A DNA stretch of 64,000 bases from Halorubrum depositum. GTDB lineage: Archaea > Halobacteriota > Halobacteria > Halobacteriales > Haloferacaceae. Both the position numbers and the translations under genes were made by a program. The stretch spans positions 124,001 through 188,000 of the forward strand of contig NZ_VCNM01000001.1 in NCBI RefSeq assembly GCF_007671725.1. Reading direction: 5' to 3'. Below the pieces are notes generated by a model that was given only the letters and a program-made list of their open reading frames with translations, was not told where the DNA came from and did not search any database. Position 1 is the stretch's first letter, and every line of letters begins with the position of its first letter. Below, one piece after another: positions 6,139 through 63,333 of this stretch.

Positions 6139-6771
6139 ATGCGCCAGTTCGTCGTCGTCGCCCACGAGGCGCCGACCGATCCGGACGCGGTCTCGCTGTC
6201 GGACCTGCCCGGCGCGGGCCGGCTCGACCTGCTCTGCCGGTGCGTCGCGACCGGCGTCTTCCTCTCGCACGGGATCCGCGACTCCGTGCGGGTCCACCTC
6301 GTCGTCGACGACGCGCTCACGGTCACCTTCGACGCCGACAGCCTCCGCCACCTCCACCCCGACGAGCGCAACGTCGCCGCCCGGGTTCGAGACGCACTCG
6401 CCGCGAAGCCCGACGCGATCGGGCACATGCCCGCCGACGTCTCACCGGGGGTCGAGCTCCGCCGGATGGGGCTCGAAGCGACGCTGGACCGGCTGCTGGA
6501 CTCGAACGGGACGGGCGGCGCCAGCGGCGGGGCCACCGACCCGACCCTCGTCCAGCTCCACGAAGACGGCGACCCCCTCGTCGACGCCGCGCCGCCCGAC
6601 GACCCGGTGTTCGTCCTCTCGGACCACCGCGACTTCACCGACGGGGAGGAGTCGCTGCTCGCCGAGCGCGCGGAGCGCCGCGTCCGCGTCGGCCCCGAAC
6701 TGCTCCACGCCGACCACGCCGTTTCGGTCGTCCACAACTGGCTCGACACCGATGGCTACGAGTCCTACTGA
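6139..6771 (+). CDS. trmY: tRNA (pseudouridine(54)-N(1))-methyltransferase
   Basis: A 210-residue SPOUT-class methyltransferase starting MRQFVVVAHEAPT. TrmY makes N1-methylpseudouridine at position 54 of archaeal tRNAs, replacing the m5U of bacteria. The C-terminal knot region FVLSDHRDFTDGEE followed by VRVGPELLHADHAVSVVHNWLD is the SAM-binding trefoil segment and is well preserved. Length is normal for the family. The ATG at 6139 follows a TATA-like box at the leaderless distance. The last 20 nt overlap the next gene, which is read in another frame. Confidence 0.93.
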   Translation: MRQFVVVAHEAPTDPDAVSLSDLPGAGRLDLLCRCVATGVFLSHGIRDSVRVHLVVDDALTVTFDADSLRHLHPDERNVAARVRDALAAKPDAIGHMPADVSPGVELRRMGLEATLDRLLDSNGTGGASGGATDPTLVQLHEDGDPLVDAAPPDDPVFVLSDHRDFTDGEESLLAERAERRVRVGPELLHADHAVSVVHNWLDTDGYESY

Positions 6772-7219
6772 CCGGCGGACCACGACCGCGCCCGCGACCG
6801 ACGACCGGTTCGCGGTCCCCCTGCGCGGGGTCGCCGTCGACCCCGAGACGCGCTGCGCTCACTGGGACGACCCCGTCGACGTGATCGCGCTCCGGTTCGG
6901 TTGCTGTGAGGCCTACTACCCCTGCGACGCCTGTCACGACGCCGCGGCGGATCACCCGGCCGAGCCGTGGCCTCGGGACCGCTTCGACGAGCCGGCGGTG
7001 CTCTGCGGGGTCTGCCGCGCGACCCTCTCGGCCCGCGAGTACCTCGACGGCGACGGAGAGGCGCAACGCGCCTCTGACAGTCGGGCGAAGCCCGACGACA
7101 GCGAGGGACACGGTCCCTCGGGCAACCGGGCTTCGCCCGGTGACGACGCCTGCCCGCGCTGCGGCGTCGAGTTCAACCCCGGCTGTCGCGAGCACCGCGA
7201 TCGGTACTTCGAGGCGTGA
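6752..7219 (+). CDS. CHY zinc finger protein with palindrome-bearing linker
   Basis: A 155-residue protein whose cysteines and histidines follow the CHY zinc-finger layout: RCAHW, CCEAYYPCDACHD, LCGVCRATLSAREYL, then DACPRCGVEFNPGCREHRDRYF. CHY fingers occur in ubiquitin ligases such as Pirh2; the role of the short archaeal stand-alone versions is not known. The odd part is residues about 102-130, a low-complexity linker between the last two zinc-binding segments. Its DNA (7057-7141) consists of four perfect palindromes in a row, each with a 3-nt loop. They keep the reading frame, so the protein remains whole. The gene overlaps the end of trmY by 20 nt. Confidence 0.8.
   Translation: MATSPTDRRTTTAPATDDRFAVPLRGVAVDPETRCAHWDDPVDVIALRFGCCEAYYPCDACHDAAADHPAEPWPRDRFDEPAVLCGVCRATLSAREYLDGDGEAQRASDSRAKPDDSEGHGPSGNRASPGDDACPRCGVEFNPGCREHRDRYFEA
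7057..7141 (+). repeat. Cluster of four triloop palindromes inside the CHY zinc finger gene
   Basis: Four back-to-back inverted repeats, each with a 3-nt loop: arms AGAGGCGC (7057-7064/7068-7075, loop AAC), GTCGGGC (7080-7086/7090-7096, loop GAA), CGAGGGAC (7102-7109/7113-7120, loop ACG) and ACCGGGC (7125-7131/7135-7141, loop TTC). They encode only a flexible linker. Palindromes of the same design occur in the elements at 15621 and 34214. Confidence 0.8.
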
Positions 7220-7314: not shown

Positions 7315-7387
7315 GGGCCGGTGGGGTAGCTTGGTATCCTTCGGCCTTCGGGTGGCCGTAACCACGATTCAAATTCGTGCCGGCCCA
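7315..7387 (+). tRNA. tRNA-Pro (anticodon CGG)
   Basis: Acceptor arms GGGCCGG (7315-7321) and CCGGCCC (7380-7386) pair fully, with discriminator A. The anticodon stem CGGCC/GGCCG closes the loop TTCGGGT, giving anticodon CGG. The T-arm CACGA/TCGTG closes TTCAAAT. No intron and no encoded CCA. A TATA-like ttaaaag lies near 7284-7290. Confidence 0.95.
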
Positions 7388-7567
7388 CTTCCCGCATCCG
7401 TTTTGAACCGCGTAGCGGCCCGTACCGCGTGAGACGGCGGCTCACCGGCAGGCGTGAGACGACGATGAGAGCGCTCCCCCGGCCACGGAGCCAACCGGGG
7501 AGGATCCGCAACTCCGAATCGCGCTTTTGACAACCTTCAAGTCCACCGCTGGCCGGGTGTAACACGA

Positions 7568-14649: not shown

Positions 14650-15558
14650 TCAGATCGCGTGGATCCGGGCGGTCCAGAAGTCGCTGAAGGCGTTCTCGAG
14701 CGCCGCCTTCGGCTTCCCGGTCGCGTCCGAGACGTCGGTGACGTCGGCGTGCTCGCGGACCTCGCCGAGGACGCTCCGCTCGCCGACGACGATCACGCGA
14801 TCGACGTCGCCCGCGTCGGCGACGGCGGCCAGTTCCCGGTTCGCCTTCTTCAGGTGGTCGTCGATCTGGCCCTCGCGGCGGCGCTCGAAGCGCCCCTGCG
14901 AGAAGCCGCCCTTCGAGTGGGCTCCCTTCACGTCGGAGGCGAACCCCTCGAAGGCGACGCGCTCGGTCCCCTCGTACGTGCCCATCGCGAACGTGTCCGA
15001 CCGGACCACGGCGAAGGCGAACCGGCCGGTCGGACGGAACCACGGCTCCTCCAGCCGGAAGGCGTCGTCCCACCGGTCGAAGGGCTCGGGCTCGATCGGC
15101 GGCGCGATCGCCGCGCTCACCGCGCCCGAGTCGTCGGCGAGGACGACCGCGGGCGCGGCCCGCCGGACCAGCCGAGTCCGGTCGCCGAACCACTCCGACA
15201 CGCTCGTCGGCACCGCGTCGTCGCTCGGGACGAACGCCGTGAGCAGCCCCTCCGGGTCGGCGCTCTCGACGGCCCGGAACCGGTCGAGGACGTCGCTCAG
15301 GCGCGCGCCGCGGGCGTCGCTCACGCGGCGGAACTCGACTGATTCCTCCCCGCCCTCCGCCCGGCTCAGCCGCTCCTCCAGCGACTCGATCCGGTGTTCG
15401 AGATCGTTGACGCGCTCCTCGGCGCGCTGGCGGTCGGCGACCGCATCGGACCGCCGCTCCTCCTCGGCCTCGGCGCGGCGTTCGAGGTGGCGCTTCTCCT
15501 CCTCCAACTCCGCGATCCGCTCTTTCAGCTCGGCGCGCCCGAGCAGCCTGTCGATCAT
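14650..15558 (-). CDS. Vms1/Ankzf1-like peptidyl-tRNA hydrolase/release factor homologue
   Basis: A 302-residue protein. Residues about 8-75 are a charged coiled coil (ELEEEKRHLERRAEAEEERR). The rest matches the eRF1-like Vms1 domain, with the loop GAHSKGGFSQGRFERRREGQ near residues 210-225, at the place corresponding to the peptide-releasing loop of Vms1, Ankzf1 and actinobacterial VLRF1. Those proteins release nascent chains from tRNA on split or stalled ribosomes. Whether this protein is active cannot be judged because the exact catalytic glutamine position is uncertain. The ATG at 15558 is preferred over a TTG two codons earlier; a TATA-like cttttagg is 28 nt away. Confidence 0.78.
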   Translation of the reverse strand: MIDRLLGRAELKERIAELEEEKRHLERRAEAEEERRSDAVADRQRAEERVNDLEHRIESLEERLSRAEGGEESVEFRRVSDARGARLSDVLDRFRAVESADPEGLLTAFVPSDDAVPTSVSEWFGDRTRLVRRAAPAVVLADDSGAVSAAIAPPIEPEPFDRWDDAFRLEEPWFRPTGRFAFAVVRSDTFAMGTYEGTERVAFEGFASDVKGAHSKGGFSQGRFERRREGQIDDHLKKANRELAAVADAGDVDRVIVVGERSVLGEVREHADVTDVSDATGKPKAALENAFSDFWTARIHAI

Positions 15559-15620
15559 ACCCAACCCGCGACCGCCGGCGACCTAAAAGGTGCGTCTGCG
15601 GCGAGGCGAATGAGGCTCTG

Positions 15621-16005
15621 TTTATAAATATTTGTTTACAAATAATCGCAGTGGCGCGCGCCTGCGAGCGCCCATCGGGCGCGAGTCAGCGCGCGCGAGG
15701 GAGGTCGCTGGCGCCGACGGCGCCAGCGACGAGGCTGGGGAGGCGTGAGGCGCGGGGCTGTGCGGTTGCGGGGTGGGACTCAAAGGGGCAGCCGCGAGGA
15801 CGGCGCAGGCGACGGAAGCACTACAGGGAGTGAGCGAAGCGAACGACCGAAGCGCGTGGTTCGAAACGGCTCCGCCGTTTCGTCATCACGAGACGCCTTT
15901 GGCGTCTCGAACGACAGCGAGCGTGCGCCGTCCTCGTGGCTGGGGCTTTGGAGGTGTTCAGCGTCGCTCACCGGCTGACTACTTATAAGGCATAGACGAC
16001 ACCGA
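15621..16005 (+). ncRNA. Candidate structured RNA element, copy 1 of 3
   Basis: This fills most of the 475-bp gap between the Vms1-like gene and the DUF5802-like gene. Parts in order: AT-rich promoter-like sequence (15621-15647); a two-part helix with outer arms GCGCGCGC (15654-15661/15689-15696) and inner arms GCGCCC/GGGCGC (15668-15682); a perfect 12-bp hairpin with arm GTCGCTGGCGCC (15704-15730, loop GAC); the core GAGGCTGGGGAGGCGTGAGG (15731-15750); and a long stem CAAAG, GGG internal loop, CAGCCGCGAGGACGGCGCA (15781-15807) paired with 15924-15950. Two triloop palindromes (15862-15882, 15889-15909) sit inside the stem's loop. It ends with TATAAG (15984) and ACGACACCGA (15996-16005). No protein is encoded. 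Confidence 0.65.
15862..15909 (+). repeat. Two triloop palindromes inside copy 1
   Basis: Arms CGAAACGGC (15862-15870/15874-15882, loop TCC) and CGAGACGCC (15889-15897/15901-15909, loop TTT) are perfect 9-bp palindromes. They lie 3' of the conserved GAGTGAGCG segment, whereas copy 2 has its pair 5' of it and copy 3 has none. They therefore look like later insertions. Confidence 0.75.
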
Positions 16006-34213: not shown

Positions 34214-34609
34214 TATTATAAACGAACTGCGGTGGCGCGTGCCTGCGAGCGCCCGGTTGGGCGCGAGTCAGCACGCGCGAGAGAGCTCGGTCGTCCGGAG
34301 CAACGCGGAGGACGACCGACGAGGCTGGGGAGGTGTGAGGCTGCGGTCGCTGTGCGGGGCGGGATCCAAAGGGGCAGTCGCGAGGACGGCGCAGGCGTTC
34401 ACGAGAGCGGAGCTCTCGTGAGCCAATCAGAACGCTTCGCGTTCTGATGACGACGTAAGCACTGCAGGGAGTGAACGAAGTGAACGACCGAAGCGCACAG
34501 CGAGCGTGCGCCGTCCTCGCGGTTGGGGCTTTGAACGAGTTCTCCGTCGATCTCTCCTCGACTACGTATAGCCGAACGACGAGGGCTTCGTATAAGAGAA
34601 CGACACCGA
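34214..34609 (+). ncRNA. Candidate structured RNA element, copy 2 of 3
   Basis: It occupies the 519-bp gap between the DgcN-like and DUF5785-like genes. TATA-like TATTATAAACGAAC (34214-34227) is followed by a two-part helix (outer GCGCGTGC with GCACGCGC, inner GCGCCC with GGGCGC), a hairpin with perfect 10-bp arms TCGGTCGTCC (34287-34296) and GGACGACCGA (34310-34319), the core GAGGCTGGGGAGGTGTGAGG (34321-34340), and the long stem CAAAG, GGG, CAGTCGCGAGGACGGCGCA (34367-34393) paired with 34507-34533 through two G-U pairs. Two triloop palindromes lie inside the loop. It ends with TATAAG (34591) and ACGACACCGA (34600-34609). No protein is encoded. Confidence 0.65.
34399..34448 (+). repeat. Two triloop palindromes inside copy 2
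   Basis: Arms TCACGAGAGC (34399-34408/34412-34421, loop GGA) and ATCAGAACGC (34426-34435/34439-34448, loop TTC) are perfect 10-bp palindromes. They lie 5' of the conserved GAGTGAACGAAGTGAACGAC segment, opposite to the position of the pair in copy 1, and have unrelated sequence. Confidence 0.75.
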
Positions 34610-47128: not shown

Positions 47129-47154
47129 AAGCGGAGAGTTAGTGAAAACGGAGT

Positions 47155-47239
47155 GCAGGGAGCAGGATTTGAACCTGCGGACCTCTACAGGACAGCGCCC
47201 TGAACGCTGCGCCGTTGGCCTGACTTGGCTATCCCTGCG
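47155..47239 (-). tRNA. tRNA-Leu (anticodon CAG)
   Basis: Acceptor arms GCAGGGA (5' end at 47239) and TCCCTGC pair fully, with discriminator A at 47155. The anticodon stem CAGCG/CGCTG closes loop TTCAGGG, giving CAG. A long variable arm marks a class II tRNA, and the T-arm contains GGTTCAAATCC. It lies between rpoD and rpl18e, as in other haloarchaea. Confidence 0.95.
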
Positions 47240-62952: not shown

Positions 62953-63333
62953 TCTTATAAACGAACGGCGCGGTGCCGTGCGGTGGCGCACGCCGTGAGC
63001 GGGCCGAAGGCCCGCGAACGACCGTGCGAGGGACGCGGTGAGCGCTCGAAGAGCGCGAACCGCGAGGCTGGGGTGGTGTGAGGTGCTGTGCGGAGCGGTG
63101 TGGGGTGGGACTCAAAGGGGCAGTCGCGACGACGAAGGCGGCCGAAGTAAGCACCGCAGCGAGTGAGCGGAGCGAACGAGCGAGGAGCGCACCGAGGCCC
63201 CCGAGTCGTCGCGACTGGGGCTTTGGAGGCGGTCACCACGCTGTCAACGAGTGGTTATAAGGAAGTGGCTGGACTCGGCGGCCGTCCGTCGAGCCGTCGC
63301 CAGCGACAGCTTATAAGCAACCGACGACACCGA
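62953..63333 (+). ncRNA. Candidate structured RNA element, copy 3 of 3
   Basis: It fills most of the 514-bp gap between ctaA and the next gene. CTTATAAACGAAC (62953-62965) is a TATA-like start. The first helix has outer arms CGCACG/CGTGCG and inner arms GCGGGCC/GGCCCGC (loop GAA). The second hairpin has outer CGCGGT/ACCGCG and inner GCGCTC/GAGCGC (63034-63064, loop GAA). The core is GAGGCTGGGGTGGTGTGAGG (63064-63083). The long stem CAAAG, GGG, CAGTCGCGACGAC (63113-63133) pairs with 63205-63225. This copy lacks the inserted triloop palindromes. It ends with TATAAG (63312) and ACGACACCGA (63324-63333). Confidence 0.65.

Follow-up and report, generated by a model that had tools for sequence, protein, structure and literature searches.

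The window analysed here is a stretch of 64,000 nucleotides from the genome of Halorubrum depositum (3.18 Mb, five contigs; G000 in the comparisons below), within which perfect palindromes occur in adjacent pairs, termed double-hairpin elements (DHEs), in two of three copies of an RNA element and in one protein gene. The features concerned are the following.

6752-7219, + strand: CHY zinc-finger protein gene (zf-CHY, E 1.3e-11), the second host
7055-7099, + strand: class C DHE no. 1, 45 nt, in frame, with hairpins at 7057-7075 and 7080-7096
7100-7144, + strand: class C DHE no. 2, 45 nt, in frame, composed of AG, hairpin 7102-7120, GGCA, hairpin 7125-7141 and GAC
15648-15962, + strand: RNA element copy 1 (host), 3' domain at 15781-15950, matched by the model R1 and showing covariation
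15857-15914, + strand: class B DHE, 58 nt, composed of TGGTT, hairpin 1, TCATCA, hairpin 2 and AACGA
15862-15882, + strand: hairpin 1 of the class B DHE, arms of 9 bp, loop TCC
15889-15909, + strand: hairpin 2 of the class B DHE, arms of 9 bp, loop TTT
34229-34545, + strand: RNA element copy 2 (host)
34397-34451, + strand: class A DHE, 55 nt, GT-TCACGAGAGC gga GCTCTCGTGA-GCCA-ATCAGAACGC ttc GCGTTCTGAT-GAC
62980-63237, + strand: RNA element copy 3, empty, its 3' domain without a double-hairpin insert

The palindromes of the preliminary description were recovered with the coordinates and loops given there. Both perfect 9-bp palindromes of copy 1 lie 3' of the conserved GAGTGAGCG segment (at 15828), and the two perfect 10-bp palindromes of copy 2 (34399-34421, loop GGA; 34426-34448, loop TTC) both lie 5' of GAGTGAACG (at 34469). 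All four have the 3-nt loop that had been noted, and inspection of the 3' domain of copy 3 likewise bore out the statement that this copy is without palindromes. As regards tRNAs in the window (7315-7388 and 47153-47238), ARAGORN predicted four, of which the Rfam gathering score recovered only two.

The host element, approximately 310 nt long with a 5' and a 3' domain, is predicted from its sequence to be a covarying RNA family. Across 27 copies, 99.2% of cells were paired, two-sided change was found in 19 of 31 pairs, and 101 cells carried two-sided changes compared with 24 in shuffles; none of 500 shuffles reached any of the measures, slid controls collapsed, and the structure of the RNA is strongly supported. 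The GAGTGAGCG segment corresponds to a short helix of this RNA with tandem G-A pairs and a triloop (non-standard pairs assigned by eye), and the arms of the RNA's own hairpins vary with compensation. The host RNA did not match any Rfam family at the gathering score, nor did copy 1 in a permissive scan. R1, a model of the 3' domain, recognised 60 places in the genome of the window (E <= 0.001, 150 candidates scored), and had matches in 38 of 60 genomes of the family and in 89 of 116 genomes (36 of 45 genera) of the class, where copy numbers are floors because the candidates scored per genome were limited to at most 60 and 31, respectively. The 3' domain spans 104-123 nt in most RNA copies; nine of the 60 places span more than 150 nt, and those read hold twin hairpins.

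Several further forms of variation were observed in the RNA. In some species (G094, G073, G085 and G083), its tail (GCGGCTGGGGCTTTGGAGGTGTTC..TTTATAAGCGA, ~57 nt; window positions 15942-16000, loci L351-L380) forms a tandem array of up to about four units, with a TATA-like TTTATAA or similar in each unit. At the copy-1 locus of two genomes (L371 in G079 and L375 in G070), the RNA has collapsed through an apparent deletion between two TGGGG motifs, with GAGGCTGGGG joined to CTTTGG. Another type of insert, CCCGCGAGC..CAGCCCGC..AGCAGGAACG, occurs in L046, L369 and L370, and two variable hairpins in the 5' domain (alignment A2) seem to reuse a limited set of arms.

The hairpin pair as a unit

Triloop palindromes are in excess, and the excess extends to pairs. 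Within a 464-kb sample (20 segments of 20 kb from the genome of the window, plus the window itself; one first-order Markov control), 21 triloop palindromes with arms of at least 9 bp were observed against 4 in the control, compared with 130 against 92 for the other twelve loop sizes together, an excess which is in part due to the RNA's own hairpins, which are themselves mostly triloops (159/215). Pairs of hairpins with the same loop size (arms of at least 7 bp, gap of at most 14) numbered nine for loop 3 and three for all twelve other sizes together. Among 120 named loci (930 kb) picked for holding the RNA element, loop 3 gave 72 palindromes with arms of at least 9 bp against 13.5 in the control, and every other loop size gave 14-36 against 12.5-26.5; adjacent perfect hairpin pairs numbered 46 with loop 3 and 0-3 for each other size in the 0-10 range. 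Neither an absence of excess nor an equal frequency of other loop sizes, either of which was to count against the preliminary description, was found, and loop 3 was favoured.

The unit is the hairpin pair, and a single palindrome is half of it. The earlier conception of the palindromes as separate units did not hold, as they come as twins with fixed linkers, with an adjoining partner in 330 of 338 cassette hairpins. An autonomous relative was sought in the form of cassette hairpins without a twin, yielding 8 of 338; by eye, the partner of seven of these is decayed or interrupted, and for one (L134) no clear partner was visible. A DHE is 45-66 nt long, with ends uncertain by 1-3 nt; between a short 5' tag and a 3' tag lie two perfect hairpins, separated by a linker of 4-6 nt and each with a 3-nt loop. 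The loop was of this length in 377 of 384 cassette hairpins (the remaining 7 being exceptions); among the matches listed outside the genus for class B (150 listed, 17 of them imperfect), it differed from 3 nt in 15 of the 133 perfect first hairpins.

Three classes were distinguished by their grammar, namely GT..hairpin..GCCA..hairpin..GAC for class A, TGGTT..hairpin..TCATCA..hairpin..AACGA for class B, and AG..hairpin..TGGCA or GGCA..hairpin..GAC for class C. A scan for adjacent triloop hairpins across all loci fetched by that point gave 158 distinct pairs, and a catalogue under the stricter grammar contained 162 DHEs (106 of class C, 32 of class B and 24 of class A), the class A and B portion being subject to some bias, since exact hairpin-1 patterns had served to fetch many of the loci. 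The arms of class A were identical for hairpin 1 in 24/24 and for hairpin 2, which was absent from the search pattern, in 23/24, with the linker GCCA in 24/24 and with 8 and 12 different loops, respectively. In class B, 30 of 32 elements had the linker TCATCA, and the arms were few, some serving either position. Class C had the linkers TGGCA, GGCA, GACA, TTGCA and others, and recurring arms GAGGGACC, GAGGCGC, CGTGGCGC, GCGAGAGC and GAGAATC, and GCCGGCGGC, GCCGGCGC, ACCGGGC and GTCGGGC. Overall, the arms amount to approximately 20 recurring cassettes, and it is the loops that vary. The proposal that any arm sequence is tolerated was therefore wrong; its companion, that the shape is kept, agrees with the constant 3-nt loop and perfect arms.

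The loops themselves are restricted, with 300 of 324 being R-N-A or TNY, where R is purine and Y pyrimidine (GNA 137, TNC 104, ANA 42, TNT 17, other 24). GNA loops give unusually stable DNA mini-hairpins, and a sheared pair can close an R-N-A loop or its complement. Loops are found alongside their complements (GAA 75 and TTC 53; GGA 40 and TCC 27; GTA 15 and TAC 22), and flips of the sequence between hairpin arms are known from plastid DNA, according to work cited in PMC5910586.

Three observations lie beside this classification. A fourth twin-hairpin type (TTCCCGCGAGCAACGCGAGCGGGAA-GA-CGGGAGACnnnGTCTCCCG) was present in L136 and L093, a further insertion of ~115 nt occupies the tip or second hairpin of a DHE in L057 (784-1060), and L208 and L283 have, after 1501, an AT-rich insertion with TAGTGATAG at the tip or second hairpin of a DHE.

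Distribution and occupied sites

DHE hairpins were dispersed across the 39 genus genomes, with the class C second hairpin in 36 (419 matches, both strands), the class A first hairpin in 27 and the class B hairpin in 28. Beyond the genus, 9 of 79 genomes of the family, from 3 of 28 genera, had class C, and class B was detected across the class in 105 of 194 genomes, representing 45 of the 65 genera sampled. Class B was also present on plasmids in Natribaculum, Haladaptatus, Halomontanus and Halolamina; reversed-pattern controls gave no matches in the 39 genus genomes or in the 194 class genomes. R1 matched in 4 of 20 fetched class B loci (L424, L425, L428 and L432) and in the plasmid locus L414. 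Several other class B loci adjoin palindromes resembling IS605-type ends, and those beside class B copies in other genera are putative IS605-like ends. Among viral contigs, the class A pattern had no matches and the class C pattern matched three contigs as single hairpins only, with no DHE.

Most RNA copies are without a DHE, and the class B element of copy 1 is missing from most RNA paralogues and most orthologous copies. Empty and filled sites could be paired at the copy-1 locus, whose neighbouring gene (14650-15564) is present in all 39 genus genomes; of the 39 loci, 30 were read, and R1 recognised the RNA in 19 of these. By eye, seven of the 19 RNA copies contained intact DHEs in differing sets (B in G000; A, B and C in G066; three C in G092; A and C in G086; B in G077; C in G095; C in G078), ten had none visible, including G064 (partly masked) and G062 (another type of insert), and two were degenerate (G013 and G063). 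The cleanest case of gain or loss is the pair G086 and G073, in which 189 of 203 aligned bases are identical (93%) and the only two long gaps correspond to a class A element of 55 nt and a class C element of 49 nt. Their junctions are GGAGGC/..GAC/GACG and CACGGC/..GAC/TGGGG, where a possible target duplication amounts to one base (C) at most. The comparison of empty with filled sites that had been proposed between strains was thus possible between species, although the orthologous RNA copies have diverged in their stems and conversion by a paralogue could mimic gain or loss at the locus.

Across RNA copies, class C was inserted at at least 11 positions, in both orientations and with clean empty sites, and was the only class shown at many RNA positions (in Halorubrum); classes A and B each occupied one position in the Halorubrum RNA copies read. 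The suggestion that the palindromes extend the loop of the large stem stands as one case of insertion and fails as a general description, given the many RNA positions and the protein genes occupied by class C.

The four triloop hairpins at 7057-7141 are two tandem class C DHEs within the CHY gene. Interpretation of this cluster as an RNA near the tRNA-Pro was rejected, the sequence being coding; a permissive Rfam scan of it gave weak matches far below the thresholds of the families. The segment between two conserved CHY motifs was readable in 28 of 30 orthologous loci (G087 and G065 being not readable by motif), was open in all 28, and forms a ladder of lengths, with short rungs of 15 nt (5 loci) and 18 nt (8), middle rungs of 60 nt (4) and 66 nt (1), and long rungs of 102 nt (1), 105 nt (5), 147 nt (1) and 150 nt (3). 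The steps are of 45 nt, and the units, which differ in arm type, are stacked on or nested in one another, although the ladder could include tandem duplication.

Other coding hosts with the same kind of peptide were three histidine kinases, a DUF7095 protein and a DEAD-box helicase, based on a reading of the element rows together with the CHY ladder; some RNA-borne copies are labelled as open reading frames because spurious open frames overlie them. The insert site of the histidine kinases adjoins the presumed N-box. Inserts in verified coding hosts had only lengths that are multiples of three, 45 or 66 nt allowing for boundary ambiguity; in the length table, automatic choices of boundary or pairing gave three CHY DHEs a length of 46 nt and another three one of 43 nt. 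Class C in RNA (n=75) measured 49 nt in 42 cases, 47 nt in 16 and 45 nt in 6. A pair of triloop hairpins with other arms, in a long CoA synthetase-like open frame (L311, 18194-18238), is possibly another coding DHE.

Possible movement and alternative explanations

Most probably, the palindromes described in the RNA copies are the two halves of a dispersed, non-coding and mobile-looking double-hairpin element. The copies have precise ends, a target duplication of at most one base, many sites and both orientations, are inserted in other DHEs, and turn over between close species. A possible course of events is that the copies spread as DNA, the DHE being a passive element moved in trans by an enzyme supplied elsewhere in the cell, and that this enzyme would recognise the twin hairpins, probably as single strands, which would account for the lack of target duplication and, in classes A and C, of terminal inverted repeats. 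Surviving insertions would be those at sites tolerating an extra pair of hairpins, such as structured-RNA junctions, other elements' palindromic ends and, probably, disordered loops of proteins. The loop would be constrained in shape (R-N-A or its complement) and free in sequence, with both complementary readings occurring. Since class A hairpin 2, which the search pattern left unfixed, keeps its arms and varies its loops, the loop appears to be altered during or after movement. A link to IS200 or RAYT enzymes was considered and is unsupported, as the IS200-type Y1 transposase (PF01797) had no matches in the genome of the window and, although present in 32 of 39 genus genomes, was absent from the DHE-rich G057, G063 and G084 and showed no correlation with class C counts (Spearman -0.11, p 0.51; 39 genomes). 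A helper enzyme may have been present in the past.

Several explanations without a mobile double-hairpin unit were weighed against these data. Chance palindromes would be expected at 70% GC, where palindromes of all loop sizes are abundant in the window, but the excess specific to loop 3 and to pairs, together with the empty reversed-pattern controls, leaves this explanation a negligible probability. It is very improbable that the hairpins are expansion helices, grown by the RNA when template switching or slippage occurs at palindromes. Triloops do predominate among the RNA's own hairpins, whose arms vary with compensation, but this reading is already contradicted by the sequence common to unrelated sites, where the same twins turn up with the same linkers and ends, at many positions, in either orientation and in protein genes, and by the 45-nt steps of the CHY ladder. 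Spread solely through homologous recombination and gene conversion between host copies could explain classes A and B, each being at a single position in the Halorubrum RNA copies read, but it does not accommodate the many RNA positions and both orientations of class C, nor its presence in other DHEs and in unrelated protein genes, and is considered quite unlikely as the sole route.

Two alternatives invoke known families of elements. REP elements have a 5' GTAG-type tag, and in BIMEs the REP hairpins are paired. Such elements, served by a RAYT transposase, would be twin hairpins that are short, dispersed and without target duplication, as DHEs are, but no GTAG-type tag was seen at the ends of classes A, B and C, the Y1 family is absent from the genome of the window, and many DHEs lie within coding and RNA genes, such that this origin is decidedly improbable. 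Terminal-only PATEs, remnants of IS605-type transposons in which two near-terminal palindromes were fused and which are moved by an IS200-type TnpA, are unlikely, despite the presumably IS605-like ends adjoining class B copies in other genera. Haloquadratum has 52-bp elements of this kind, without target duplication and with palindromes near both ends, but a terminal region of 20-50 bp lies beyond the PATE palindrome (PMC3119063), compared with 2-5 nt beyond the hairpins in all three DHE classes, and the absence and lack of correlation of the Y1 transposase stand against them.

Returning to the mobile double-hairpin element, a broader version can be put forward tentatively, as a possibility short of a firm expectation, in which DHEs would form a superfamily of minimal transposable units of two triloop hairpins across the class Halobacteria, moved by a DNA mechanism, as yet undescribed, that recognises hairpins and reproduces arms, linker and ends unchanged while the three loop bases are redrawn or flipped, and in this way remodelling a multi-copy RNA and adding 15-codon steps to proteins. 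Should DHEs prove mobile, they would rank with the smallest transposable units described so far, and with their clean empty sites, subfamilies and ladders differing by species, the mechanism can be tested in archaea that grow in culture. DHEs account for odd in-frame protein inserts, such as those after the presumed N-box of some haloarchaeal histidine kinases, and indicate that a multi-copy RNA can gain helices through invasion rather than point change. Among the titles and abstract openings of the open-access literature searched, no description of twin-triloop elements in haloarchaea was found.

Relation to known elements

Paquin, Laforest and Lang (2000) reportedly described double-hairpin elements of fungal mitochondrial DNA, consisting of two tandem hairpins and proposed to be mobile. 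DHEs share with them the two tandem hairpins as a unit and a short, gene-free and dispersed nature, and insertion polymorphism between relatives was found likewise (the copy-1 locus, the pair G086 and G073, and the CHY ladder). Unlike the fungal elements, DHEs reside in archaeal chromosomes, are GC-rich, have a loop that is almost always 3 nt, and occur in structured RNA and in frame in proteins.

Other systems overlap in part. REP and BIME elements are small dispersed hairpins as well (PMC12306157), but are extragenic with other tags, and a Y1-type partner was not found in the genome of the window. DHEs nest and insert in both orientations, as do the selfish, nested short palindromic repeats of Volvox organelle DNA, which differ in being AT-rich with hairpin loops of 3-5 nt and a conserved loop sequence (PMC2670323). 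MITEs are distinguished by the DHE target duplication of at most one base and by the AG..GAC ends of class C. The SMRs of Haloquadratum are described in PMC3119063 as 80-110 bp long with terminal inverted repeats, SMR-A entering the palindromes of other elements and the mobiliser being unknown; among DHEs, class B has GGTTCGA/TCGAACGA, and the ends of classes A and C are not inverted repeats. Like PATEs and SMRs, DHEs are haloarchaeal, gene-free, palindromic and without target duplication, and like PATEs they have palindromes near both ends; the passages of that source compared here give neither a fixed 3-nt loop nor an in-frame location in genes for either.

Rickettsia palindromic elements are approximately 150 bp long, encode a conserved peptide and lie in frame in unrelated protein genes, according to PMC10969869. 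DHEs resemble them in being in frame in unrelated genes (CHY, histidine kinases, DUF7095 and helicase) and differ from that description in their length of 45-66 nt, two small hairpins and stacked ladders. DHEs lack one defining feature each of PATEs, MITEs and Rickettsia palindromic elements, and are therefore placed in the double-hairpin kind, as a variant of it. In form, they are closest to the mitochondrial double-hairpin elements, although descent from the fungal ones is unlikely; their habit most resembles that of the Rickettsia palindromic elements, and their setting that of the Haloquadratum PATEs and SMRs.
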